Positions 3,672 to 58,805 of a stretch of DNA of 64,000 nt are shown here, piece by piece. The notes under the pieces are model-generated. The model ran no database searches and was not told where the DNA came from. It saw only the letters and a program-made list of their open reading frames with translations. The DNA comes from Meghimatium bilineatum (Eukaryota > Mollusca > Gastropoda > Stylommatophora > Philomycidae), in contig CM067298.1 of assembly GCA_034231615.1 (NCBI GenBank), positions 60,728,387-60,792,386 on the forward strand. Reading direction: 5' to 3'. The first letter of the stretch is position 1; each line of letters begins with the position of its first letter. Position numbers and translations under genes: made by a program.

Positions 3672-5050
3672 GAATGGTGCAATGAAAATCCACCTCAACA
3701 ATGGAAAGACGGTATCATCGTCAAACTCCCTAAGAAAGGCGACCCCTCAGACTGCAACAACTGGCGGGGTATCACCCTATTATCAGTCATAGGCAAGGTC
3801 TTCCTAAGCATCATATTGGAAAGATTAAAGAATGCTGTTGATAAACTACTCAGAGAAGAACAAGCAGGCTTTAGATCAGCTCGCTCCTGCACAGACAACA
3901 TATTTTCTCTTCGCATCATCATTGAAGAATCACTCGAATTCCAATCCCCGCTCATAATCAACTTTGTTGACTTTGAAAAAGCATTTGATAGTCTTCATCG
4001 GCCTACGTTATGGAATATTCTACAGCAATACGGTTTTCCTACTAAAATAATCAATGTTATAAAGGCATTCTACACCAACTCACATTGCTGTGTTCAAACA
4101 AACACTGAGAAGTCAGAATGGTTCCAAGTTGTTACGGGCGTTAAACAGGGATGCATCATGTCCCCATTACTTTTCTGCGTCGCTATTGATTGGGTCATGA
4201 GAAAGAGCACTGAAAATGAGCTGACAGGAATAAAATGGATTAATAATACCGTTCTCGAAGATCTTGACTACGCAGATGACCTGGCCCTTTTGAGCGCAAA
4301 CCACACAGATGCTCAATCTAAGCTTGACAATCTCCAACACTACTCAAATCAGATAGGGTTGAAAATCAACACATCAAAAACTCATATACTAGATTTTACG
4401 AGATCCAACGACAACATAGAAATTCAAAATGTTCCATTATTAAAAGTCAACAATTTTACATATTTAGGCACCAATCTAGCATTGGATGGAGACTCATCAA
4501 AAGAAATTTTACACCGTATTGCCCTTGCAGCGGGTGCTTTCAATAAACTACGCAACATATGGACGTCAAACACACTAAGAAACACCACAAAACTCAAGTT
4601 ATTTAACTCCAACATCATCCCTATTCTATCATATGGGTGCGAAAGTTGGAAAGCCACAAAAGCCACAGATAAAAGACTCGACTCCTTTGAAAACAAATGC
4701 CTACGTACCATTCTGAACGTTAAGTGGAGTGACTTTAAATCTAACACTACTATAAGAGAGGAAAGCAAACAAACCTATATATCTTCCTTCATTAGACAAA
4801 GGCGTTGGACTTAATCGGCCATGTTCTTAGAATGAACAGCCTAAGAATTCCCCAGCAATCACTACATTGGGTGCCACCTGGAGTAAGAAGAAGAGGGAGA
4901 CCTAGAGAAACTCTACGAAGAACCATTAATAGAGAAGGCATGTCAATGAACCTAAACAACACGCAACAATTGAAAGACCTGGCAACACAAAGACAGAAAT
5001 GGAAAGCTATGGTTTCTGCCCTATGCGCCGCCTATGGCCCTGGAGGAACA
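3672..5050 (+). pseudogene. LINE reverse transcriptase, palm to C-terminus
   Basis: The frame runs open to 4814. Motifs in order are QAGFRSARSCTDNI, then NFVDFEKAFDSLHR with the first catalytic aspartate, GVKQGCIMSPLLF, and DYADDLALLS with the catalytic YADD. Next come QIGLKINTSKT (thumb), YLGTNLALDGD, YGCESWKATKATDKRLDSFE and the tail. A stop at 4814 falls at RRW.LIGHVLRM, and the next frame (4805-5053) continues with GHVLRMNSLRIPQQSL, GRPRETLRRTINREGM and KAMVSALCAAYGPGGT. This is the ordinary ending of endonuclease-RT LINEs without RNase H. A single break separates RT from tail, so the copy is fairly young. Clade is not settled; RTE-like or a relative is likely. Confidence 0.9.
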
Positions 5051-25568: not shown

Positions 25569-25580
25569 GAGATTATTCTC
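25569..25580. repeat. LINE-H copy 1 TSD, 3' side
   Basis: GAGATTATTCTC, identical to 30314-30325. The 12-bp duplication frames the whole of LINE-H copy 1, including its nested insertions. Confidence 0.9.
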
Positions 25581-25648
25581 TTCTTCTTCTTCTTTCGTTC
25601 ACTTGAAACATGTCTATATCTGTAATTCTGTCTCCTTAATAAAACTCA

Positions 25649-26312
25649 ATAGAAGGTGGTAAGTAACCCATAGCACTTATTAATGCCGCAGGGGTGTGAG
25701 ATGTTAGCGATCTCACATTTCACAGGCTCTGCAAATGAGGGCGGTAGCCATCTCCTCTCACTCGCAGTCTTTACTTCCCGGATTAATCCGGTACCCATTT
25801 AAGGCTGGGTCGACCTGGGAGCCGTTGCGATCTGAAAACATTTCCGCCTCAGCTGGGGAATGAACCCAGGACCACTCATATGCGAAGCCAGTGCGCTAAC
25901 CACTGCGCTAACGCGGCTCCCAAGTAAAATATGAAGGTGGTACTGCTAGTAGAACATAATGGAAAATAATACTCACGTGTAGACAGGTAATGAAGTCCTA
26001 CTGAATGACGACTAAAAACACTTCACACTATCACTAACGGAAGATAGACCATGTATCTTACTACCACATTTCACTCGGATACGCATTCATTTTTACTTGT
26101 GGTTTTTTTTATGTTTGTATGTTATGTCCGTATCTTGAAAAAGGCCTATTGGTCAGAAACGTCGACTTTGTCCTGTGTATTGTCATCTGTAGATTATATT
26201 ATGTGTTTTGTTTTGTTATATGTACCATATTTACATCCGTTAGTGATAGTGTGTAGTGTTTTTAGTCGTCATTCAGTAGGACTTCATTACCTGTCTTACA
26301 CGTGAGTATTAT
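25649..26312. mobile_element. Foldback element nested in LINE-H copy 1
   Basis: Flanked by TTAATAAAACTCA (25636-25648) and TTAATAAAACTTA (26313-26325), a 13-bp target duplication of LINE-H sequence. Copy 2 has this target only once. The insert has inverted arms of about 78 bp at 25964-26041 and 26236-26312, nearly identical, with one indel. The centre is about 190 bp and contains 'ggcctattggtcagaaacgtcg' at 26145-26165, a hammerhead-like relic. The left part was later hit by SINE-A. No transposase is encoded. A Penelope-like origin is possible but unproven. Confidence 0.8.
25662..25932 (-). repeat. tRNA-derived SINE-A, copy 1
   Basis: The minus strand starts GGGAGCCG, followed by A box 'tagcgcagtggttagcgc' and B box 'ctgggttcattccccag'. 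The latter is a perfect T-arm, with stem CTGGG/CCCAG and a 7-nt loop. CGGCTCCC, pairing with the 5' end like an acceptor stem, appears about 30 nt after the T-arm. A tRNA-unrelated body follows, ending in 'atgggttactt'. GAAGGTGGTA at 25652-25661 and 25933-25942 is the likely TSD. It sits inside the foldback insertion. Confidence 0.88.
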
Positions 26313-27745
26313 TTAATAAAACTTACTGTCTTTTGTAGTTCATACAGTGTCCCATAGAGTTTTGATTTCAGTGTTGTTTCCTCTGGCCAATATTTCTGCC
26401 TCAGCGTTTCATGCTCAGAACACTCTTGAAGTATATGTTTGCCACTCTGTGCTGCCTGTCCACATGTACACATGGCCGTGTTGCCAATCTTGAACTTTGT
26501 ATACATGTGACTGCGGAGTCGGTTGTGTCCTGTTCTGAGACGTAGAATTATAACTTGTTCTGGTCTGTTCATAATATGATAGTCATCTTGTGTTGGTGTT
26601 TGTGGCTTTCTTATTGACTTGATCATCTGTTTTTTCTGATGGTAGGTGATTGGTATATCTGGTTGGTCTTCGGCAGCACCTTCCTTAGCCAGTTGGTCTG
26701 CTTTTTCATTTCCTTGTATTCCACAGTGAGTGGGTATCCACTGCATGGTTACCCTATACTGGTAAGACAATTCGCTAAGTAGTTTTTTCAAGTCTGTTAG
26801 TTTTCCAGACTGGAGAGCTTGAAGCACTGACCTTTCATCTGTCAGGAATACCACAGGCTGTAGGTCAGAGTTGGAGTTCAGCAGTTTTTTAGCTGCAACA
26901 CTAATTGCCTGGATTTCTGCATCATAATTATTGCAGAATTTTCCTGTCGGTGTTCTGATTGTATCTCTTGGCTTGTGTGGATATTCTATATATACACCTG
27001 CACCTCCATTCTTCACGGCATTCTGTGCTGACCCATCTGTGTATAATCTGACCCATATATCTTGTGGATATTCCTCATTCAGGAAACTGAGGGTGACTGT
27101 CCTTCGCTGCACACTGTTCTGTTCGTCCTCGCTTAGTATTCCTTTCACATGGGTCTGAATGTATATTGACATTCCATGTCTTTCACTCCACGGGGTTTGT
27201 TCTGGTACATTCCTTAAGGGGCTGTCAACTTCAGGTAGGTCTGTAAGTTGTCTGCGGAGTCGTTTAGCTTGATGGATAAAGCTGCTTCTTTTCAGTCGTC
27301 CCATTGCTAGATTTTGGAATCTTTCCTTCATTGGATGACTTGGCATACACTGAAACTTTTCTGCCTGAATTAGTACTTTTGTGTCTCTGCGTTCGCCAAG
27401 TGTTTGCGTTCTTCCCATTTTCTGCATCTCTGCTATGGGTGTTGATTTCATTGCTCCCAACATTATTCTAAGTGCCTGGTTTTGCACTTTATATTGATCT
27501 TGTAATGTGGTGTTTGATGCAGGACACCACGCAGCTGAACCATATTCCAGGTGTGGTCTTATGCCTTGCTGGTAAACTTTACTGAGTATATTTCCACTGG
27601 CTCCCCATGTGGTTCCACTTAGTTTTCTCAGGATAGCTAACTTCCTCCTGGCTTTTGTTGTTGCTTTGTTTATGTGCTGCTTCCATGTCAGTTTATCATC
27701 AAAAGTAACTCCGAGGTATGTGGGGGGTTGTTTGTCTTCTTTCAA
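26309..27745 (-). pseudogene. LINE-H copy 1: RT thumb, RNase H, zinc knuckle
   Basis: Open frame of 478 residues. It begins with the RT thumb (PTYLGVTFDDKLTWKQHINK) and the connection region (RPHLEYGSAAWCPASNTTLQ). RNase H has all expected acidic positions: YTDGSAQNAV, NYDAEIQAIS, FLTDERSVLQ, and WIPTHCGIQGNEKADQLAKE. The zinc knuckle C-x-C-x8-H-x4-C follows (CTCGQAAQSGKHILQEC). It is separated from the upstream RT by a frame change in a C-run near 27725. The last residues are lost to the nested insertion: copy 2 ends ETELQI whereas this copy stops at SFIK. Confidence 0.93.
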
Positions 27746-27809
27746 GAGCTCTCCATCTATTTTGATATGACCGCTTTTGTTTTGGTGAGAGGGTAAAGAG
27801 TGTAGTGCT

Positions 27810-28660
27810 TCACTTATCTGTGTTAATGCTGACGTACCATCTATTAGCCCATAAGGTTAGGGCATCGATAGCTCTTTGTATTTGTTTAGTGGCCACTGTC
27901 GCATGTTCTTCCGCGCACCAGATCACCAGGTCGTCAGCATACATTGCCACTTTGATCCCGTGTGGTAGTTCAGCAACTAGATCATTGATGTAAACCAAGA
28001 AAAGTGTGGATGACAGGACTCCTCCCTGGGGGACTCCATGACGTAGTAGAACTTTCTTGCTCTTGCGACCATCTAATTGTATCCTGGCTCTTCTATTATG
28101 CAGGTATGCTTTTACCCATTTGTACATTCTTGAGGTAACTCTGCAATTTCGCAATTTCTTTAGGAGCCCTTCTTTCCAGACCTTATCAAATGCTTTTCTG
28201 AGGTCTATCCATGCTGCTAGTACCAGTTCTTTTCTTGGAAGGCATCCTCAATCTCTTGGGAGAGGTAGGTTGCCTGATCTTCAGTAGAGTAGCACTGTCT
28301 GAAACCTGCTTGCTGTGATACCAGAAGGTTTTCACTTTCAAGGTACCACTGCATCCTAAGATTGATAATGCGTTCCATTGTTTTGCATAGACAGCTTGTG
28401 AGGCTGATGGGCCTGTAGTTGGAGACTGTGTTGCCATCTTTTCCTGATTTGAGGAGTGGTTTCATTATTGCTTCTCTCCACGCCTGTGGTACATTACCTG
28501 TGGACCAGGTTGTGTTAAAGATCTGCAGTAGCTTTGCTCTTGTTGCAATTCCCAGGTTTCTAATCATTTCATTGGACACTCCATCAGCTCCAGGGGACTT
28601 TTTAATTTTTAATTTAGATATTGCATGCTCCAGTTCTCTCATTGTGATTGGTGCCTCCAT
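27810..28660 (-). pseudogene. LINE-H copy 1: RT palm and fingers
   Basis: Two frames. 28660-28217 has KIKKSPGADGVSNEMIRNLG, NYRPISLTSCLCKTMERIIN and QQAGFRQCYSTEDQATYLSQ. 28154-27810 has RHGVPQGGVLSSTLFLVYIN and VAMYADDLVIWCAEE with the catalytic YADD. Between them a single A is missing relative to copy 2 (the AAGAAACTGG region near 28217), which shifts the frame across the D-x-x-KAFD motif. A TGA replaces a cysteine codon just after SINTDK. Confidence 0.92.
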
Positions 28661-29290
28661 GACTTCATGTATAGGTTCGCCTTGTCCAATGTTTTGCTGG
28701 TTCTCTCGAACCTCCTGTTATTTGTCTTGGCTGACTTTGATGTTATTGTCTTCTGCAAAGGAATCTGCAAAGTAATCAGCTGCATGTTTACCTGTTAAAA
28801 TGCATATATCTTTATAAAGTGTGATCCTGGTATTTCTCCCTGTACCTTCATCATTTAGTTGTTTTACAAGTTTCCATAATTTCCTAGTATCTCTTTCTAG
28901 GTTCAGCGACTCTGTTTTTTCTTTCCAGCTACTCCGTCTGGCTTGTAACTTGGCTCTTTGAAATTTAGCCTTTGTTTGCTGATATTTGTTGTGATTTTCT
29001 TGGCTATGTCTGTTCTCAGCCTGCTGTCTAGATGTTTCTATCTATTTTTGCAGCTTTTCCAGTTCATCATTCCAGTAGGGTTTGTAGTTTTTGCGTGCCC
29101 CCGTGGGTATGGTTTTACTAGCAGCATGTAGTATACATCTATTAAATTCACTCACTGCTCTATTGATGTCTTTGTCCAAGTTCATGTCCTTAGCTAGAAC
29201 ACTGGTTAAATGCTGGTACATTTTAAAGTCTGCCCTTTTATAGTTCCACCTAGTGAGCATGCTGCTGTCCTTGGTAAATTCATTGTGGAT

Positions 29291-30145
29291 TTACAGAAAT
29301 ACTGGTCTGTGGTCACTACCCCCAAGCTGCTTTCCAACGACACGTGTGATGTTCCATTCCAGGTCTGGTGAATGGAATGCCAGATCTGGTGTAGAGGTGG
29401 TGTGCCATGCTCTCGAGTAGAAGGTTGGTGAGTCTGCTGGCTGGTTAATAAGGATGAGATTATTTTCATCCTGCCAGCTCTCAAGTTCCTCACCTCTCTT
29501 GTCGATATGATCATAGCCCCAGCTCTGAGAGTGGCTGTTGAAGTCACCACACACCATAAGTCTCTCTTTATCTGGAATTGTGTCTAGTGCCAATGGTTTA
29601 TCATTTGGGCAGTAGTAGTTCAGGAGATGGAATTCTGCACTGTCTGTTTTTAGGTGGAGCATCTGGTGTTCTGCCCCTTCCATATATACTTCCAGCTGAC
29701 ATGCGCTGATATTGTTTTTAACAAGTGTCAGAATTCCACCCTTTCGACTGTCCTTTCGGTCAGATCGGTAGCACTGGTAGCCTCTGATTTTGAAGGCTAT
29801 GTCGCTGCTGAGGTGTGTTTCTTGGATACAGCATATATTAACTTGTTCTTCACTGAGGACATTTTCAAGTTCCAATTTTTTGCTGTATCCATCTCTTTTA
29901 CTTTTGACACCCTCAGCATTCCAGTGCATTATTTTTATTGGTCGTTTAAAGTTTGTTTGGCCAGTAGCTCTATTCCCTTGCCTCCTGGCTCCTCGAGGCA
30001 ATTGAGAAGGACTTTCAGTAACTGAGGTTGGGCCCTTTCGAGGTATAGGGCCCGGCACTGTCCCTGCCTGAACGTCCGCCACAGGGCAGATACCATAACT
30101 TTTTATAGATACAGACATGTTTCCATTGTGTTTTGTGCGTGGCAT
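29291..30145 (-). pseudogene. LINE-H copy 1: endonuclease domain
   Basis: Starts at ATG (30145) with MPRTKHNGNMSV. A 75-residue basic, proline-rich leader precedes the apurinic-like endonuclease: IMHWNAEGV, CCIQETHLSSD, LMVCGDFNSHSQSWGYD, STPDLAFHSP and GGSDHRPVFL. The catalytic N, E, D-N, D and D-H residues are all visible. The enzyme would nick the target to prime reverse transcription. The frame ends at a TAA directly after HRPVFL, where copy 2 has GAA, so this is a nonsense change. The EN-RT linker continues below it with further stops (for example near 29042 and 28720). Confidence 0.93.
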
Positions 30146-30239
30146 CCTGATTATCTGTGCGTCTTTTGGCTGTATGCCTCCATCTTCAGCACTCTGCTTA
30201 CTTGGGCAGGACTATGGTCCTGCTCGAATGGGAATGCCC

Positions 30240-30314
30240 GACCAGTCTTAGTTTCCAGCCCCTGATGGCTGAACTAAGCCCCATCACCACTGCACGGTGC
30301 TGGCCTTGATGGAG
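30240..30314 (-). ncRNA. HDV-like self-cleaving ribozyme, LINE-H copy 1
   Basis: Folds like the copy at 32539. P1 is (C)UCCAUC with GAUGGGG, P2 GGCCAG with CUGGUC, P3 ACC with GGU closing the 7-nt loop GUGCAGU. P1.1 is AG with CU and P4 is CAGCC with GGCUG. J4/2 contains CUAA, matching the CNRA signature whose C is the catalytic base. Loop 3 differs from copy 2 while the stems are kept. The predicted cleavage site falls at the TSD border. Confidence 0.75.
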
Positions 30315-30325
30315 AGATTATTCTC
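30314..30325. repeat. LINE-H copy 1 TSD, 5' side
   Basis: GAGATTATTCTC, partner of 25569-25580. Confidence 0.9.
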
Positions 30326-30689
30326 AAACTCCAGCTAGTTATTATGTACTCAGTACAAAGACATGTCTAGCGATGAGACAAACGATATATGCGCGTGTTC
30401 ATCCGACACATCAAACTTAAGCATACTATTAAGGGATAATTGTTGTCCTTCCATGATATAACTGCAAACATATACAGAACTCTTCAACAGGAAAGTATAC
30501 AGTGTCAACAATTTATTTTAATGGAATGAGATAATCACACGCTTATTCCTTCTTAGTAGCATCTTCTTAAATTCATGATATGTTATAGTACAACTATTCG
30601 TTGTCCTTTTTTGTAACCACGGCTAAACTCTAGCAGTAAGTGGTTATATGATACATGTTAAATGATCGTGTTAGTTGCCAGTTTTTGTG

Positions 30690-32209: not shown

Positions 32210-32538
32210 TATCTTTAGCAACAAATTGGCATTCACGTCAACACTTCAAAGACTAGGGTCATAAACTTTACTAACTGTAACTGTAAAATTACCCTCAACG
32301 TAGAAACAATTCGAATAGTTGATAAATGTTTCTATTGAGGAAGCCAAATTACAAGAGATGGACACACAACACAGGAGATTTCTATCAGAACTGCGTTGGC
32401 ATCAAGTGAGTTCAACCACCAAACAAACATCTTGAAATAAAAAGCAATAGGTAAATATACCACACTACGACTGTTCAACTCCAATGTGATATTCGTGTTT
32501 ACAAACGGTTGCGAACGTTGGAAAATGACAAAAACACC
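32210..32538 (+). pseudogene. Old LINE RT fragment, split by LINE-H copy 2 (left part)
   Basis: Frames read NWHSRQHFKD/IGIHVNTSKTRVINFTN (RT thumb), then GSQITRDGHTTQEISIRTAL and LRLFNSNVIFVFTNGCERW, and KMTKT at the breakpoint. They correspond to IGLKINTSKT, LGTNLALDGD, LKLFNSNIIPILSYGCESW and KATKAT of F2-A. The rest continues after 36597. Several stops make it older than LINE-H copy 2. Confidence 0.8.
32527..32538. repeat. LINE-H copy 2 TSD, 5' side
   Basis: GACAAAAACACC, identical to 36597-36608. Confidence 0.9.
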
Positions 32539-32613
32539 CCCCATCGAGGCCAGAACCTTGAAGTGGTGATGGGGCTTAGTTCAGCCATCAGAGGCTGGAA
32601 ACTAAGACTGGTC
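32539..32613 (+). ncRNA. HDV-like self-cleaving ribozyme, LINE-H copy 2
   Basis: P1 is CCCCAUC (32539-32545) with GAUGGGG (32568-32574). P2 is GGCCAG (32548-32553) with CUGGUC (32608-32613). P3 is ACC (32555-32557) with GGU (32565-32567), closing a 7-nt loop. P1.1 is AG (32562-32563) with CU (32575-32576). P4 is CAGCC (32582-32586) with GGCUG (32593-32597). J4/2 has C-U-A-A at 32602-32605, fitting CNRA. This is the nested double pseudoknot known from R2 and other LINE 5' ends. The cleavage site coincides with the first nucleotide after the TSD. Confidence 0.8.
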
Positions 32614-32707
32614 GGGCACTCCCACTCGAGCAGGACCATAGTCCGGCCCAAGTAAGCAGAGTGCTGAAGACGGAGGCAACCAGCCAAAAGGCGCACAGAT
32701 AATCAGG

Positions 32708-33967
32708 TTGCCACGCATAAAACACAATGGAAACATGTCTGCATCTAATAAACGTTATGGTGCCTGCCCTGTGGCGGACGTTCAGGCAGGGACGGTGCCG
32801 GGCCCTATACCTCGAAAGGGCCCAACCTCAGTTACTGGAAGTCCTTCTCAATTGCCCCGAGGAGCCAGGAGGCAAGGGAATAGAGCTACTGGCCAAACAA
32901 ACAAACGACCAATAAAAATAATGCACTGGAATGCTGAGGGTGTTAACAGTAAAAGAGATGGATACAGCAAAAAATTGGAACTTGAAAATGTCCTCAGTGA
33001 AGAACAAGTAAATATATGCTGTATCCAAGAAACACACCTCAGCAGCGACATAGCCTTCAAAATCAGAGGCTACCAGTGCTACCGATCTGACCGAAAAGAC
33101 AGGCGAAAGGGTGGAATTCTGACACTAGTTAAAAACAATATCAGCGCATGTCAGCTGGAAGTATACATGGACGGGGCAGAATACCAGATGCTCCACCTAA
33201 AAACAGACAGTGCAGAATTCCATCTCCTGAACTACTACTGCCCAAATGATAAACCATTGGCACTAGACACAATTCCAGACAAAGAAAGGCTTATGGTGTG
33301 TGGTGACTTCAACAGCCACTCTCAGAGCTGGGGCTACGATCATATCGACAAGAGAGGTGAGGAACTTGAGAGCTGGCAGGATGAAAATAATCTCATTCTT
33401 ATTAACCAGCCAGCAGACTCACCAACCTTCTACTCGAGAGCATGGCACACCACCTCTACACCAGACCTGGCATTCTACTCACCAGGCCTGGAATGGAACA
33501 TCACACGTGTCGTTGGAAAGCAGCTTGGGGGTAGTGACCACAGACCAGTATTTCTGGAAATTCACAATGAATATACCAAGGACAGCAGCACGCTCACTAG
33601 GTGGAACTATAAGAGGGCAGACTGGAAAATGTACCAGCATTTAACCAGTGTTCTAGCTAAGGACATGAACTTGGACAAAGACATCAATAGAGCAGTGAGT
33701 GAATTTAATAGATGTATACTACATGCTGCTAGTAAAACCATACCCAGGGGGGCACGCAAAAACTACAAACCCTACTGGAATGATGAACTGGAAAAGCTGC
33801 AAAATGAGATGGAAACATCTAGAAAGCAGGCCGAGAACAGACCTAGCCAAAAACATCACAACAAATATCAGCAAACAAAGGCTAAATTTCAAAGAGCCAA
33901 GTTACAAGCCAGACGGAGCAGCTGGAAAGAAAAAAACAGAGTCGCTGAACCTAGAAAGAGATACTAG
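32708..33967 (+). CDS. LINE-H copy 2: endonuclease domain and linker
   Basis: Starts at TTG where copy 1 has ATG; the first in-frame ATG is at 32735. The leader (PVADVQAGTVPGPIPRKGPT) is followed by the apurinic-like endonuclease: IMHWNAEGVNSKRD, CCIQETHLSSD, CYRSDRKDRRKGGILTLVKN, LMVCGDFNSHSQSWGYD, STPDLAFYSPG and GGSDHRPVFLEIHNE. All catalytic positions are present. The helical linker WKMYQHLTSVLAKDMNLDKD continues to RRSSWKEKN. There a seventh A in GAAAGAAAAAAACAG (copy 1 has six) throws the frame to a stop at 33967. The correct continuation lies in the next frame. Confidence 0.95.
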   Translation: MPRIKHNGNMSASNKRYGACPVADVQAGTVPGPIPRKGPTSVTGSPSQLPRGARRQGNRATGQTNKRPIKIMHWNAEGVNSKRDGYSKKLELENVLSEEQVNICCIQETHLSSDIAFKIRGYQCYRSDRKDRRKGGILTLVKNNISACQLEVYMDGAEYQMLHLKTDSAEFHLLNYYCPNDKPLALDTIPDKERLMVCGDFNSHSQSWGYDHIDKRGEELESWQDENNLILINQPADSPTFYSRAWHTTSTPDLAFYSPGLEWNITRVVGKQLGGSDHRPVFLEIHNEYTKDSSTLTRWNYKRADWKMYQHLTSVLAKDMNLDKDINRAVSEFNRCILHAASKTIPRGARKNYKPYWNDELEKLQNEMETSRKQAENRPSQKHHNKYQQTKAKFQRAKLQARRSSWKEKNRVAEPRKRY

Positions 33968-36560
33968 GAAATTATGGAAACTTGTAAAACAACTAAATGA
34001 TGAAGGTACAGGGAGAAATACCAAGATCACACTTTATAAAGATAGAAACATTTTAACAGGTAAACATGCAGCTGATTACTTTGCAGATTCCTTTGCAGAA
34101 GACAATAACGTCAAAGTCAGCCCAGACAAACAACAGGAGGTTCGAGAGAACCAGCAAAACATTGGACAAGGTGAACCTATACCTGAAGTCATGGAGGCAC
34201 CAATCACAATGAGAGAACTGGAGCATGCAATATCCAAATTGAAAATGAAAAAGTCCCCTGGAGCTGATGGAGTGTCCAATGAAATGATTAGAAACCTGGG
34301 AAATGCAGCAAGAGCAAAGCTACTGCAGATCTTTAACACAAGCTGGTCCACAGGTAATGTACCACAGGCGTGGAGAGAAGCAATAATGATACCACTCCTC
34401 AAATCAGGAAAAGATGGCAACACAGTCTCCAACTACAGGCCCATCAGCCTCACAAGCTGTCTATGCAAAACAATGGAACGCATTATCAATCTTAGGATGC
34501 AGTGGTACCTTGAAAGTGAAAACCTTCTGGTATCACAGCAAGCAGGTTTCAGACAGTGCTACTCTACTGAAGATCAGGCAACCTACCTCTCCCAAGAGAT
34601 TGAGGATGCATTCCAAGAAAAGAAACTGGTACTAGCAGCATGGATAGACCTCAGGAAAGCATTTGATAAGGTCTGGAAAGAAGGGCTCCAAAAGAAATTG
34701 CGAAATTGCAGGGTTAGCTCAAGAATGTACAAATGGGTAAAAGCATACCTGCATAATAGAAGAGCCAGGGTACAATTAGATGGTCGCAAGAGCAAGAAAG
34801 TTCTACTGCGTCATGGAGTCCCCCAGGGAGGAGTCCTGTCACCCACACTTTTCTTGGTTTACATCAATGACCTAGTTGCTGAACTACCTCACGGGATCAA
34901 AGTGGCAATGTATGCTGACGACCTGGTGATCTGGTGCACGGAAGAACATGCAACAGTGGCCACTAAACAAATACAAAGAGCTATCGATGCCCTAACCTTA
35001 TGGGCTAATAGATGGTGCGTCAGCATTAACACAGATAAGTGCAGCATTACACTCTTTACCCTCTCACCAAAACAAAAAGCTGGTCATATCAAGATAGATG
35101 GAGAGCTCTTGAAAGAAGACAAACAACCCACATACCTTGGAGTTACTTTTGATGATAAGCTGACATGGAAGCAGCACATAAACAAAGCAACAACAAAAGC
35201 CAGGAGGAAGCTAGCTATCCTGAGAAAACTAAGTGGAACCACATGGGGAGCCAGTGGAAATATACTCAGTAAAGTTTACCAGCAAGGCATAAGACCACAC
35301 CTGGAATACGGTTCAGCTGCGTGGTGTCCTGCATCAAACACCACATTACAAGATCTAGATAAAGTGCAAAACCAGGCACTTAGAATAATGTTGGGAGCAA
35401 TGAAATCAACACCCATAGCAGAGATGCAGAAAATGGGAAGAATGCAAACACTTGGCGAACGCAGAGACACAAAAGTACTAATTCAAGCAGAAAAGTTTCA
35501 GTGTATGCCAAGTCATCCAATGAAGGAAAGATTCCAAAATCTAGCAATGGGACGACTGAAAAGGAGCAGCTTTATCCATCAAGCTAAACGACTCCATAGA
35601 CAACTTACAGACCTACCTGAAGTTGGCAGCCCCTTAAGGTCTGTACCAGAGCAAACCCCGTGGAGTGAAAGCCATGGAATGCCAATATACATTCAGACCC
35701 ATGTGAAAGGAATACTAAGCGAGGACGAACAGAACAGTGTGCAGCGAATGACAATCACCCTCAGTTTCCTGGATGAGGAATATCCACAAGATATATGGGT
35801 CAGAGTGTACACTGATGGGTCAGCACAGAATGCTGTGATGAATGGAGGTGCAGGTGTATATATAGAATATCCACACAAGCCAAGAGATACAATCAGAACA
35901 CCGACAGGAAAATTCTGCAATAATTATGATGCAGAAATCCAGGCAATTAGTGTGGCAGCTAAAAAACTGCTGAACTCCAACTCTGACCTACAGCCTGTGG
36001 TATTCCTGACAGATGCAAGGTCAGTGCTTCAAGCTCTCCAGTCTGGAAAACTAACAGACTTAAAAAAACTACTTAGCGAATTGTCTTACCAGTATAGGGT
36101 AACCATGCAGTGGATACCCTCTCACTGTGGAATACCAGGAAATGAAAAAGCAGACCAACTGGCTAAGGAAGGTGCTGCCGAAGACCAACCAGATATACCA
36201 ATCACCTACCATCAGAAAAAACAGATGATAAAGTCAATAAGAAAGCCACAAACACCAACACAAGATGACTATCACAATATGAACAGATCAGAACAAGTTA
36301 TAATTCTACGTCTCAGAACAGGACACAACCGACTCCGCAGTCACATGTATACAAAGTTCAAAATTGGCAACACGGCAATGTGTACATGTGGACAGGCAGC
36401 ACAGAGTGCCAAACATATACTTCAAGAGTGTTCTGAGCATGAAACGCTGAGGCAGACATATTGGCCAGAGGAAACAACACTGGAATCAAAACTCTATGGG
36501 ACACTGTATGAACTACAAAAGACAGTGAGTTTTATTAAGGAGACAGAATTACAGATATAG
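33936..36560 (+). CDS. LINE-H copy 2: RT, RNase H, zinc knuckle
   Basis: Open from the A-run frameshift to TAG at 36560 (the same frame is open back to 33699). RT: KMKKSPGADGVSNEMIRNLG, WREAIMIPLLKSGKDGNTVS, NYRPISLTSC, LAAWIDLRKAFDKVWKEG (first catalytic D), RHGVPQGGVLSPTLFLVYIN, and MYADDLVIWC (catalytic YADD). The thumb is PTYLGVTFDDKLTWKQHINK. RNase H: RVYTDGSAQNAV, NYDAEIQAIS, FLTDARSVLQAL, MQWIPSHCGIPGNEKADQLA. The zinc knuckle is CTCGQAAQSAKHILQEC. It copies the element RNA at the nicked target and degrades the RNA strand. All active-site residues are intact, so this part may still be functional protein if expressed. Confidence 0.95.
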   Translation, partial: TESLNLERDTRKLWKLVKQLNDEGTGRNTKITLYKDRNILTGKHAADYFADSFAEDNNVKVSPDKQQEVRENQQNIGQGEPIPEVMEAPITMRELEHAISKLKMKKSPGADGVSNEMIRNLGNAARAKLLQIFNTSWSTGNVPQAWREAIMIPLLKSGKDGNTVSNYRPISLTSCLCKTMERIINLRMQWYLESENLLVSQQAGFRQCYSTEDQATYLSQEIEDAFQEKKLVLAAWIDLRKAFDKVWKEGLQKKLRNCRVSSRMYKWVKAYLHNRRARVQLDGRKSKKVLLRHGVPQGGVLSPTLFLVYINDLVAELPHGIKVAMYADDLVIWCTEEHATVATKQIQRAIDALTLWANRWCVSINTDKCSITLFTLSPKQKAGHIKIDGELLKEDKQPTYLGVTFDDKLTWKQHINKATTKARRKLAILRKLSGTTWGASGNILSKVYQQGIRPHLEYGSAAWCPASNTTLQDLDKVQNQALRIMLGAMKSTPIAEMQKMGRMQTLGERRDTKVLIQAEKFQCMPSHPMKERFQNLAMGRLKRSSFIHQAKRLHRQLTDLPEVGSPLRSVPEQTPWSESHGMPIYIQTHVKGILSEDEQNSVQRMTITLSFLDEEYPQDIWVRVYTDGSAQNAVMNGGAGVYIEYPHKPRDTIRTPTGKFCNNYDAEIQAISVAAKKLLNSNSDLQPVVFLTDARSVLQALQSGKLTDLKKLLSELSYQYRVTMQWIPSHCGIPGNEKADQLAKEGAAEDQPDIPITYHQKKQMIKSIRKPQTPTQDDYHNMNRSEQVIILRLRTGHNRLRSHMYTKFKIGNTAMCTCGQAAQSAKHILQECSEHETLRQTYWPEETTLESKLYGTLYELQKTVSFIKETELQI

Positions 36561-36596
36561 ACATGTTTCAAGTGAACGAAAGAAGAAGAAGAAGAA

Positions 36597-36608
36597 GACA
36601 AAAACACC
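36597..36608. repeat. LINE-H copy 2 TSD, 3' side
   Basis: GACAAAAACACC, partner of 32527-32538. Confidence 0.9.
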
Positions 36609-38867: not shown

Positions 38868-39130
38868 AAAGTAACCCATAGCATTTATTCATGCTGTAGG
38901 AGTGTGAGATTTTAGCGATCTCACATTTCAGAGGCTCTGCAAATGGGGGCGGTAGCCATCTCCTCTCCCTCGCAGTCTTTACTTCCTGGATTAATCTGGT
39001 ACCCATTTAAGGCTGGGTCGACCCGGGAGCCGTTGCGATCTGAGAAACATTTCCGCTTCAACTGGGGAATGAACCCAGGACCACTCAAATGCGAAGCCAA
39101 TACGCTAACCACTGCGCTACACGGCTCCCC
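38868..39130 (-). repeat. tRNA-derived SINE-A, copy 2 (complete)
   Basis: 263 bp with perfect 10-bp TSDs AGTCCATAAA (38858-38867, 39131-39140). The minus strand starts GGGAGCCGTGTAGCGCAG (A box GTAGCGCAGTGG) and has the same perfect T-arm with B box GGGTTCATTCC. CGGCTCCC lies about 30 nt later, pairing with the 5' GGGAGCCG. Near-identity to copy 1 shows recent activity. Confidence 0.93.
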
Positions 39131-45131: not shown

Positions 45132-45745
45132 TTCCTGGATTGCTTTGAAGAAAGAAACATTTTCATCTACAGCATGCACCGAAATTATAAGAAAGTCACA
45201 GCACATTTTCCTCTAGAGAAGAAGACTGTCCAGCTCGTGTCATTTGGCTTTAACGCCATATTGAATACAATCAGTCAACTGTGACGTGAAAACTGTCACA
45301 TGATGAAAACATGATAGCATCCTCATAGGAATATATTGAATGATCAAAAGAGAAAATGCTGACTGGGTGGTTGGCATTGTGACATAAGAGAATATATATG
45401 CATATATTGCGAAAATGATTTACAGCATACAAGATAGAAGAATGTGGACAAACATGATAACCCACGCTACACAGCATGGATTGTAACAAGAGGAAGCAAT
45501 GTTTACACTCCCAATCTGCGATTGTTTCCTCAACACCGTCTCCAATATAAGACCTACTCGCTAATAGGAAATGTAGTCTTTTAAAATAATTACTTTAACT
45601 ATTCCTTTGATTTTCTTCAGCTGTCACACAAAGCATAATCTAAGTATAATGTCATGTTGAACAAGAGTGATAAACTCATACTAATTTTTGTTCTACTGCC
45701 AATTTTCTAAAACAATATAACTTTTATAATAACTGACATTTACCT
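45132..45745. other. No gene seen
   Basis: Tail of the frame above, then AT-rich sequence leading into the minisatellite. Confidence 0.4.
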
Positions 45746-45747
45746 AT

Positions 45748-47322
45748 CACTTAGTATCACTTATATTACTTACTATCACTTAGTATCACTAATATTACTT
45801 ACTATCACTTAGTATCACTTATATTATTTACTATTACTTTGTATCACTAATATTACTTACTATAACTTACTATCACTTATATTACTTACTATAACTTAGT
45901 ATCACTTATATTCTTACTATCACTTAGTATCACTTATATTACTTACTATCACTTAGTATCACTTATATTACTCACCATCACTTAGTATCACTTATATTAC
46001 TTACTATCACTTAGTATCACTTATATTACTTACTATCACTTAGTATCACGTATACTACTTACTATCACTTAGTATCACTTATATTCTTACTATCACTTAG
46101 TATCACTTATATTACTTACTATCTCTTATATTACTTACTATCACTTAGTATCACTTATATTACTTACTATCACGTAGTATCACTTATATTACTTACTATC
46201 ACTTAGTATCACTTATATTACTTACTATCTCTTATATTTCTTACTATCATTTATATTCTTACTATCACTTAGTATCACGTATACTACTTACTATCACTTA
46301 GTATCACGTATACTACTTACTATCACTTAGTATCACGTATACTACTTACTATCACTTAGTATCACGTATACTACTTACTATCACTTAGTATCACTTATAT
46401 TCTTACTATCACTTAGTATCACGTATACTACTTACTATCACTTAGTATCACGTATACTACTTACTATCACTTAGTATCACTTATATTCTTACTATCACTT
46501 AGTATCACTTATATTACTTACCATCACTTAGTATCACTTATATTACTTACTATCACTTAGTATCACGTATACTACTTACTATCACTTAGTATCACTTATA
46601 TTACTTACCATCACTTAGTATCACTTATATTACTTACTATCACTTAGTATCACGTATACTACTTACTATCACTTAGTATCACGTATACTACTTACTATCA
46701 CTTAGTATCACTTATATTCTTACTATCACTTAGTATCACTTATATTACTTACTATCTCTTATATTACTTACTATCACTTAGTATCACTTATATTACTTAC
46801 TATCTCTTATATTACTTACTATCACTTAGTATCACTTATATTACTTACTATCTCTTATATTACTTAATATCACTTAGTATCACTTATATTACTTACTATC
46901 TCTTATATTACTTACTATCACTTAGTATCACTTATATTACTTACTATCACTTAGTATCACTTATATTACTTACTATCTCTTATATTTCTTACTATCACTT
47001 ATATTCTTACTATCACTTAGTATCACTTATATTAATTACTATCACTTAGTATCACTTATATTACTTACTATCTCTTATATTTCTTACTATCACTTATATT
47101 CTTACTATCACTTAGTATCACTTATATTACTTACTATCTCTTATATTTCTTACTATCTCTTATATTCTTACTATCACTTAGTATCACGTATACTACTTAC
47201 TATCACTTAGTATCACGTATACTACTTACTATCACTTAGTATCACGTATACTACTTACTATCACTTAGTAACACTTATATTCTTACTATCACTTACTATC
47301 ACGTATATTACTTATTATCACT
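45748..47322. repeat. 29-bp minisatellite, about 1.6 kb
   Basis: Built from 'cacttagtatcacttatatt' plus 'acttactat' (29 bp), about 54 units. Variants are a CACGTATACTACTTACTAT type, a 28-bp type lacking one nucleotide (TATATTCTTACTAT), and shortened CTCTTATATTACTTACTAT units. They alternate in runs, giving higher-order structure. AT-rich, no stable coding frame. Confidence 0.97.
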
Positions 47323-47324
47323 TT

Positions 47325-51845: not shown

Positions 51846-51861
51846 AATATAAAGCTGTACA

Positions 51862-52648
51862 TTTCTACAAAACTTCTTGCTTACATTTAATTTCTACAAA
51901 ACTTCTTGCTTACATTTAATTTCTACAAAACTTCTTGCTTACATTTAATTTCTACAAAACGTCTTGCTTACATTTAATTTCTACAAAACTTCTTGCTTAC
52001 ATTTAATTTCTACAAAACTTCTTGCTTACATTTAATTTCTACAAAACGTCTTGCTTACATTTAATTTCTACAAAACGTCTTGCTTACATTTAATTTCTAC
52101 AAAACTTCTTGCTTACATTTAATTTCTACAAAACGTCTTGCTTACATTTAATTTCTACAAAACGTCTTGCTTACATTTAATTTCTACAAAACGTCTTGCT
52201 TACATTTAATTTCTACAAAACGTCTTGCTTACATTTAATTTCTACAAAACCTCTTGCTTACATTTATATCTACAAAACCTCTTGCTTACATTTAATTTCT
52301 ACAAAACGTCTTGCTTACATTTAATTTCTACAAAACGTCTTGCTTACATTTAATTTCTACAAAACGTCTTGCTTACATTTAATTTCTACAAAACGTCTTG
52401 CTTACATTTAATTTCTACAAAACGTCTTGCTTACATTTAATTTCTACAAAACGTATTGCTTACATTTAATTTCTACAAAACGTCTTGCTTACATTTAATT
52501 TCTACAAAACGTCTTGCTTACATTTAATTTCTACAAAACGTCTTGCTTACATTTAATTTCTACAATACGTCTTGCTTACATTTAATTTCTACAAAACGTC
52601 TTGCTTACATTTAATTTCTACAATACGTCTTGCTTACATTTAATTTGA
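51862..52648. repeat. 29-bp minisatellite, about 27 units
   Basis: Highly homogeneous tandem array of 'atttctacaaaacgtcttgc' plus 'ttacattta'. The first units carry CTTCTT, most later ones CGTCTT. One unit is shortened near 52261. Confidence 0.97.
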
Positions 52649-57940: not shown

Positions 57941-58368
57941 TTTAGTTGTCATAAAACGTATGTTTGACCTTTGTTAAAAAAAGAGGTAACAAGTGGTCTT
58001 AAGGAGACTCAAATTATGTTAATGCTGGATACAGACTTACTGAGACTGTTGCAAGTATAGAATACCTGTTTTACGATTTAATTACTACCCCATTCGTTTT
58101 TTATTATTGATTATCCCTCGGTTGATCACTATTTGTATACATGGCTATGTTTGGCATAAGATTCCAATTGTATAAATAATGACCAATCGGACTGACTCCC
58201 AACACAAGGCCCCATCTGGTCATGTGACAATTCTAGCAACAAGACTGTAGTACACCGTCGCTGGTTCCGCTCTTATACGAGTATAACCAAACTTGACTAT
58301 TGAATCGTAATATCGTGACTTATTAATCGTCCATATTAGTCTGTTTCTCTGTTTGAATCCACAGGAAT
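57941..58368. other. No gene seen
   Basis: Nothing recognisable. Confidence 0.4.
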
Positions 58369-58369
58369 T

Positions 58370-58805
58370 ACAAGTACAGATTCTCTTATTTCTAATTACA
58401 AGTACAGATGCACTTATTTCTAAATTACAAGTACATAAGCACTTATTTCTAAATTACAAATACATAAGCAGTTACTTCTAAAGTAAAAGTACAGAAGCAC
58501 TAATTTCTAAATTGCAAGTATAGAAGCACTTATTTCTAAATTACAAATACAGAGGCACTTATTTCTAATTACCAGTACATAATCACTTATTTCTAATTAC
58601 AAGTACAGCAACACTTATTTATAGTTAGTTAGTAGTACAGAAACACTTCTTTCAAAATTACTAGTACAGAAACATTTACTTCTAATAAAGAGTATAGAAG
58701 CATTTATTTCTAAATTACAAGTACATAAGCACTTGAATATACATTACAAGTACAGAAGCACTTATTTCTAAATTACAAGTACAGGAACACATATTTCTAA
58801 AGTTG
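58370..58805. repeat. Degenerate 29-bp tandem repeat
   Basis: About 15 units of 'ttacaagtacagaagcactt' plus 'atttctaaa', with many substitutions and small indels. An inverted, shorter array is at 62515-62635. Confidence 0.9.

Follow-up and report, generated by a model that had tools for sequence, protein, structure and literature searches.

HDV-like ribozymes have been reported in LINEs of the R2, R4, RTE, Baggins, and L1Tc/ingi groups (PMC3774820, PMC4035085). Among R2 ribozymes, rigid conservation is described only for five positions, one of which is the catalytic C, and in the jewel-wasp R2 ribozyme a G-to-A change at the loop-3 G leaves no detectable cleavage (PMC3774820). The loop-3 U and G are reported as perfectly conserved among natural variants of the HDV ribozyme and as highly conserved in the CPEB3, R2, and L1Tc families (PMC3386971), and the catalytic C is described as the base that opens J4/2 (PMC10879173). 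P1.1 comprises two pairs in HDV, whereas in the active CPEB3 ribozyme a single Watson-Crick pair is accompanied by a U-U opposition (PMC9901934). As for the position of the cut, a 5′-end location is given for R4, Dong, Baggins, and L1Tc, and likewise for the R4, L1, and RTE clades, and R2 is described as often cleaving upstream, in 28S (PMC3774820).

The described ribozymes closest to the locus considered here are those of the L1Tc/ingi clade, which occur in LINEs and SIDERs of trypanosomatids. L1Tc encodes endonuclease, reverse transcriptase (RT), and RNase H; for five ribozymes of the clade, cleavage was mapped to C1, and these RNAs are reported to be set apart from those of HDV and R2 by how their P1 G-C pairs are oriented and by the pairs of P1.1; the authors also call earlier ribozyme screening criteria too strict (PMC4035085). 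The same report describes a region downstream of the ribozyme in L1Tc and L1Tco that attenuates cleavage, and proposes a structural switch (PMC4035085). The functional HDV-like ribozyme of L1Tc occupies the first 77 nt of the element (the 5′ primer starts CCCTGGC), and this segment, Pr77, is reported as both promoter and ribozyme (PMC4748587). The printed L1Tc motif positions place CCACC at 16–20 and CGTG at 25–28; if P3 is formed by ACC 18–20 paired from base 28, then loop 3 of L1Tc would be 7 nt long with G at position 6.

We analyzed a 64,000-nt stretch of DNA (hereafter the window) that carries two copies of one LINE. The boundaries and coding content of the forward-strand copy, copy 2, are as follows:

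32539 to 36596, + strand: the second LINE copy, some 4.06 kb long and ending in a (GAA)n tail, with a TSD pair and Pfam endonuclease, RT, and RNase H matches
32527 to 32538, + strand: 5′ copy of the 12-bp TSD, GACAAAAACACC; the RNA is predicted to be cut after 32538, immediately 5′ of 32539
36597 to 36608, + strand: 3′ copy of the TSD, GACAAAAACACC, repeating 32527 to 32538
32708 to 33967, + strand: open frame of the apurinic-type endonuclease (Pfam PF14529 and PF03372), with a TTG start as listed
33699 to 36560, + strand: open frame of the RT and RNase H (Pfam PF00078 and PF00075)

A 12-bp duplication bounds the element and so places the predicted cut at the boundary of TSD and LINE, as the original prediction held; the position is ambiguous by at most 2 nt, since the last TSD bases are CC and the first four element bases CCCC. 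The RT/RNase H frame differs from that of the endonuclease, and the coding region of copy 2 is therefore interrupted; no ORF1 was seen in the LINE upstream of the endonuclease frame, the first ATG of which lies 169 nt from the 5′ end in copy 1. R2 and R4 encode restriction-like endonucleases, whereas the present element has an apurinic-type endonuclease together with RNase H. We take this combination of domains and its layout to fit the I superfamily. Across molluscs, that superfamily is reported to be represented by Nimb and Ingi as the sole clades, with one further clade, of unknown identity, in a single cephalopod (PMC10294476). Both TSDs in the window start with GA, which are the letters that would continue the (GAA)n tail (25569–25596 and 36583–36608), and during integration this tail may therefore anneal to the target.

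The first 75 nt of copy 2 can be parsed as an HDV-like double pseudoknot with the following parts:

32539 to 32613, + strand: HDV-like ribozyme candidate, 75 nt, the first bases of LINE copy 2, identified as a descriptor match
32539 to 32545, + strand: P1 5′ strand CCCCATC, pairing with 32568–32574 (7 bp)
32548 to 32553, + strand: P2 5′ strand GGCCAG, pairing with 32608–32613 (6 bp, one of them G-U)
32555 to 32557, + strand: P3 5′ strand ACC, pairing with 32565–32567 (3 bp)
32558 to 32564, + strand: loop 3, UUGAAGU, 7 nt
32565 to 32567, + strand: P3 3′ strand GGT, directly abutting the P1 3′ strand
32568 to 32574, + strand: P1 3′ strand GATGGGG, pairing with 32539–32545
32580 to 32599, + strand: inner P4 hairpin, 32580–32586 with 32593–32599, –10.1 kcal/mol when folded alone
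32602 to 32605, + strand: CNRA motif CTAA in J4/2, with C 32602 as the proposed catalytic cytosine
32608 to 32613, + strand: P2 3′ strand CTGGTC, pairing with 32548–32553

Viewed purely as complementarity, with no pseudoknot energy assigned, the double pseudoknot is present here, with a P1 of about 7 bp, a P2 of at least 5 bp, and a 3-bp P3 abutting P1. The original prediction named a 7-bp P1, a 6-bp P2, a 3-bp P3, a 7-nt loop, P4, and a CNRA motif, and every one of these parts is found at 32539–32613. In addition, U 32558 and G 32563, at positions 1 and 6 of loop 3, match the signature pair of HDV. The 2-bp P1.1 that had also been claimed is weaker than stated: in the canonical register there is one G-C pair (G 32560 with C 32575), and the other position is an opposition of U 32559 and U 32576. 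Two points concern the register of the catalytic strand. C 32602 is first in J4/2 if P4 ends at A 32601, and not if it ends at A 32599; and the CNRA register is not unique, as an A variant fits as well, by eye through the AAGA beside the P2 3′ strand.

Set beside the described systems, the candidate has something in common with each. An HDV-like fold at the LINE 5′ end is shared with R2, R4/Dong, RTE, and Baggins. The genomic and antigenomic HDV ribozymes have the same order of P1, P2, P3, P1.1, P4, and J4/2, along with the loop-3 U and G and the CNRA motif, and differ in P1.1, the present one being weaker than the two-pair element of HDV. The single Watson-Crick pair plus U-U is also the arrangement of mammalian CPEB3, a ribozyme that is intronic in a host gene, unlike one at a LINE 5′ end. 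The closest agreement is with Pr77 and its L1Tc/ingi relatives: in both cases the segment is the first 75–77 nt of a LINE with endonuclease, RT, and RNase H, starts with C, has a C-rich P1 5′ strand, and has its cleavage site at the element 5′ end (predicted here), and in both a competing downstream sequence is found (reported there, predicted here). In the fold that we infer for L1Tc, loop 3 ends in CGT, and the present loop 3, placed one base earlier, ends in AGT. This likeness is a geometric agreement read from printed positions, and not proof of common descent. There are also differences. In the present P4 a perfectly paired extension at its base occupies the CNRA strand, which may set it apart from L1Tc; the present element lacks the CGTG promoter motif, with AGTG at +24 to +27; and its tail is (GAA)n as opposed to poly(A).

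On balance, the sequence makes it reasonably probable, in our judgment, that the 5′ end of this LINE encodes a self-cleaving HDV-like ribozyme of the L1Tc/ingi type. Descriptor rarity, the position at the junction, the loop-3 U and G of copy 2, and the resemblance to L1Tc/ingi ribozymes together point to this as the best-supported reading. The folding calculations bring in two further structures that would compete with it:

32575 to 32606, + strand: extended lower P4, in which CTTAGTT (32575–32581) pairs with AACTAAG (32600–32606) in a perfect 7-bp helix
32608 to 32633, + strand: hairpin downstream of the candidate, in competition with P2 for its 3′ strand and possibly acting as an attenuator

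The extended P4, which was absent from the original account, encloses both C 32602 and the P1.1 strand. HDV ribozymes are not known to have such a 7-bp pairing between J1/4 and J4/2, and a run of seven consecutive pairs is unlikely to be accidental. Over 14 nested prefix folds (seven lengths for each of the two copies), the outer five lower-P4 pairs have mean probabilities of 0.98–1.00, and C 32602 is unpaired with a probability of 0.00–0.01 in all 14; the inner two lower-P4 pairs, in a separate calculation, have probabilities of 0.75–0.76 and 0.30. The net cost of opening the lower P4 is about 4.4 kcal/mol (–14.5 versus –10.1 kcal/mol). Because the programs cannot represent a double pseudoknot, such nested folds do not disprove activity; even so, this competing closed fold makes ribozyme activity uncertain. 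The modeled lower P4 may be either a regulatory or post-cleavage state of the RNA, or a sign that the segment forms two hairpins with no ribozyme.

The downstream hairpin has –9.6 kcal/mol in copy 2 and –7.0 kcal/mol in copy 1 when folded alone, and in the 69–110 fold of copy 1 another structure beats it. Over the seven prefix lengths, the probability that the P2 3′ strand is unpaired ranges over 0.17–0.74 in copy 2 and 0.18–0.97 in copy 1, and that of P1 being formed over 0.08–0.98 and 0.00–0.98, respectively; both swing with transcript length, and nested folding therefore gives a stable picture of neither. The fold z-score of an 86-nt segment is modest (–1.60), and we do not count it as support.

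Comparison with the second copy of the element, on the reverse strand, allows the competing folds to be set against the substitutions between copies:

25569 to 30325, – strand: LINE copy 1, with the 12-bp TSD GAGAATAATCTC at 30314–30325 and 25569–25580
30240 to 30314, – strand: the equivalent 75 nt of copy 1, with six substitutions, the helices kept, and the loop-3 signature U replaced by G

Base 30314 is both the first base of P1 in copy 1 and the last base of its 12-bp TSD. The copies differ at 6 of the 75 nt (8%), at 9 of the following 120 nt, and at 2.4–3.8% in eight later bins. Five of the six substitutions lie outside the helices (one of them at the loop-3 signature U), and the sixth turns a C-G pair of P1 into U-G. 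Each of the 23 pairs in the parse can form in copy 1 as well as in copy 2; 22 are invariant, one varies on one side, and none on both sides. Compensatory changes, which the original account had proposed to look for in P1 and P2, are found between the two copies at 0 of 23 pairs. The original prediction had described copy 1 as agreeing independently in position and fold. What stands of this is that the helices form; the agreement is not independent, there are no compensatory changes, and G takes the place of the loop-3 U. The copy 1 candidate is itself probably impaired. Permutation of the substitutions gives p = 0.018 for avoidance of the HDV helices and CNRA (0.078 with the loop-3 U and G also constrained), p = 0.003 for the parse with the extended P4, and p = 0.028–0.029 for two nested hairpins. 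Two copies cannot separate these folds, and the extended P4 fits the substitutions best.

A first alternative holds that the first 68 nt are simply two nested hairpins (1–36 and 37–68) serving translation, RNA stability, or recognition by a LINE protein, with P2 and the CNRA motif coincidental and no cleavage taking place. In both copies, two hairpins are indeed the nested minimum free energy structure of the 75 nt, at –29.2 and –27.9 kcal/mol; formation of the outer five lower-P4 pairs is nearly certain in the folds, and the substitutions avoid the stems of these hairpins too. This explanation leaves several observations unaccounted for, however. When P1 and the P4 hairpin are held fixed and the rest is shuffled, P2 and P3 arise together in 194 of 200,000 shuffles, and P2 and P3 along with the loop-3 U and G and P1.1 in 9 of 200,000; nor does it explain why P1 matches the TSD junction. 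We regard two hairpins without a ribozyme as a rather unlikely account of the segment. The proposal of an HDV-like ribozyme at the LINE 5′ end stands in part: rarity and junction position favor it, while the weak P1.1, the sequestered C in 14 of 14 folds, and the lack of covariation count against it.

A second possibility is that the conserved 5′ segment chiefly serves as an internal promoter for RNA polymerase II, as in jockey-like LINEs and Pr77, with the +1 start setting the 5′ end. An internal promoter would also yield precise 5′ ends, and the dual function reported for Pr77, with its CGTG motif at +25 to +28, gives the idea a precedent, whereas the present element has AGTG in nearly that place and a promoter does not predict the pairing of a double pseudoknot. 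We hold a primarily promoter function to be distinctly unlikely, and we note that the roles of promoter and ribozyme are not exclusive.

It remains to consider how often such a parse would arise by chance. The relaxed descriptor specified a 7-bp P1 in which no more than one pair is G-U, a J1/2 of 0–5 nt, a P2 of 5–6 bp, a P3 of three Watson-Crick pairs abutting P1, a loop 3 of 7–8 nt, a P4 of at least four pairs, and CNRA before the P2 3′ strand; the strict descriptor added the loop-3 U1 and G6 and P1.1. On both strands of the window, the relaxed descriptor matches only the two LINE 5′ ends (32539 and 30314) and the strict descriptor only one site (32539), compared with 133 and 2 matches, respectively, in 196 Mb of random sequence with the dinucleotide composition of the window. 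At these random rates, the 128,000 strand positions would be expected to yield 0.09 relaxed matches (2 seen) and 0.0013 strict matches (1 seen). The true chance lies above the computed rates, since both descriptors were written after the sequence had been seen. Separate 8-Mb random runs at two compositions gave 0 and 0 strict matches and 5 and 1 relaxed matches.

As a control, the catalytic letter was varied. With A in place of C, the same two sites in the window match (32539 and 30314), and with G or T none do. In the 196 Mb of random sequence, the counts for C, A, G, and T were 2, 3, 0, and 1 under the strict descriptor and 133, 201, 131, and 215 under the relaxed one, so that random sequence shows no preference for C over the other letters. 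A still looser descriptor proved unspecific and was set aside, with 11 sites in the window (2 on the + strand and 9 on the – strand), where 16 shuffled windows averaged 3.7. That the parse is a mere by-product of a hairpin-rich 5′ UTR and free descriptor choices, as the background matches of the loose descriptor and the post hoc nature of the tighter ones might suggest, we consider highly improbable given the observed excess of relaxed and strict matches over prediction.

A search with HDV covariance models was proposed at the outset as a check of the candidate. Those of Rfam give no sense-strand match to the LINE 5′ ends at E values up to 10, and a search of the window at Rfam gathering thresholds returns one match, which is tRNA-like, and no HDV family. 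The HDV-type models of Rfam are narrow, and to our knowledge Rfam has no L1Tc family. An antisense match to drz-agam-1 (RF01787; 14.3 bits, E 1.3, gathering threshold 37) was set aside as chance because it lies on the wrong strand and far below the cut-off, and the Rfam HDV-F-prausnitzii model had no match in one genome or in 14 control genomes. Separately, the 5′ end of copy 1 (30280–30335, – strand) shows weak matches to mir-2067 (18.4 bits, E 0.19) and mir-2066 (15.3 bits, E 1.3). These are far below cut-offs and probably reflect chance, and they raise the question of whether such annotated microRNAs are derived from LINE 5′ ends.

Related loci were sought with the LINE protein, which found none in viral_contigs or genome_contigs, and with a degenerate RT motif, which found none in viral_contigs but matched 3 contigs of genome_contigs. 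When the two genomes that contain L001 and L003 were searched by protein, 5 places came up. The relatives fetched are distant LINEs, 28–35% identical, in Solemya symbiont assemblies. The relaxed descriptor matches none of the eight loci (L001–L008) on either strand, though any of these loci may stop short of a LINE 5′ end. By eye, L002 and L003 have a CCHC-type ORF1; the contigs of L005, L006, and L008 are as long as those of L003, L001, and L002. Seven of the loci (L001–L006 and L008) are eukaryote-type LINEs with RT and RNase H inside bacterial Solemya gill-symbiont assemblies, one of them at 521946–524516 of a 537,613-base scaffold, and are likely to be host contamination or a chimeric scaffold end.

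Among the papers listed in searches of an open-licence library, none names the present lineage in its title or at the beginning of its abstract, and the main text of two mollusc LINE papers does not contain the word "ribozyme"; a prior description is possible.

The surroundings of the element also differ from those of L1Tc, in that the genome here is apparently not of the compact trypanosomatid kind, judging from its SINEs, satellites, and few long ORFs. The 3′ region of copy 1 contains about 680 nt of extra sequence that includes a tRNA-derived SINE (25661–25917, – strand), a second copy of which, about 93% alike, lies at 38869–39119. In the same 3′ region, 25981–26296 holds a 61-nt inverted repeat (98%) with its arms 194 nt apart, which is possibly a small inserted DNA element. 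Elsewhere in the window are three arrays with a 29-nt period whose units are unrelated by eye (45744–47323, 51861–52646, and 58366–58801), further arrays with periods of 33, 48, and 41 nt, and a second LINE RT fragment of a different kind, with DUF6451 (3816–4814, + strand). Pfam searches of 10 other ORFs of the window gave one sub-threshold match.

Returning to the HDV-like ribozyme as the preferred reading, we envisage the following sequence of events. An upstream promoter would read through the insertion, and the first 75 nt of the LINE transcript would adopt the double-pseudoknot fold, with C 32602 acting in co-transcriptional cleavage 5′ of base 32539. Cleavage would free a LINE RNA whose 5′ end is exactly defined and which could then be translated and copied by target-primed reverse transcription, and the 5′ end would be kept intact, or regenerated, in new copies. 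In the competing fold, the active site would be shut by the extended P4, and the P2 3′ strand would be captured by the downstream hairpin; this fold may limit cleavage or may be the post-cleavage state, in line with the switch proposed for L1Tc. A more far-reaching version, which we offer tentatively and think doubtful, is that the L1Tc/ingi-type 5′ ribozyme, instead of being peculiar to trypanosomatids, is ancestral and has been vertically kept in RNase-H LINEs into animals, having here become a bistable switch in which closure of the active site by the extended P4 times the cutting of the element RNA.

If active, the candidate would add a lineage of RNase-H LINEs, apparently outside the trypanosomatids, to the LINEs known to process their 5′ ends with an HDV-like ribozyme, and it would provide a test case for vertical inheritance versus repeated origin of LINE ribozymes.
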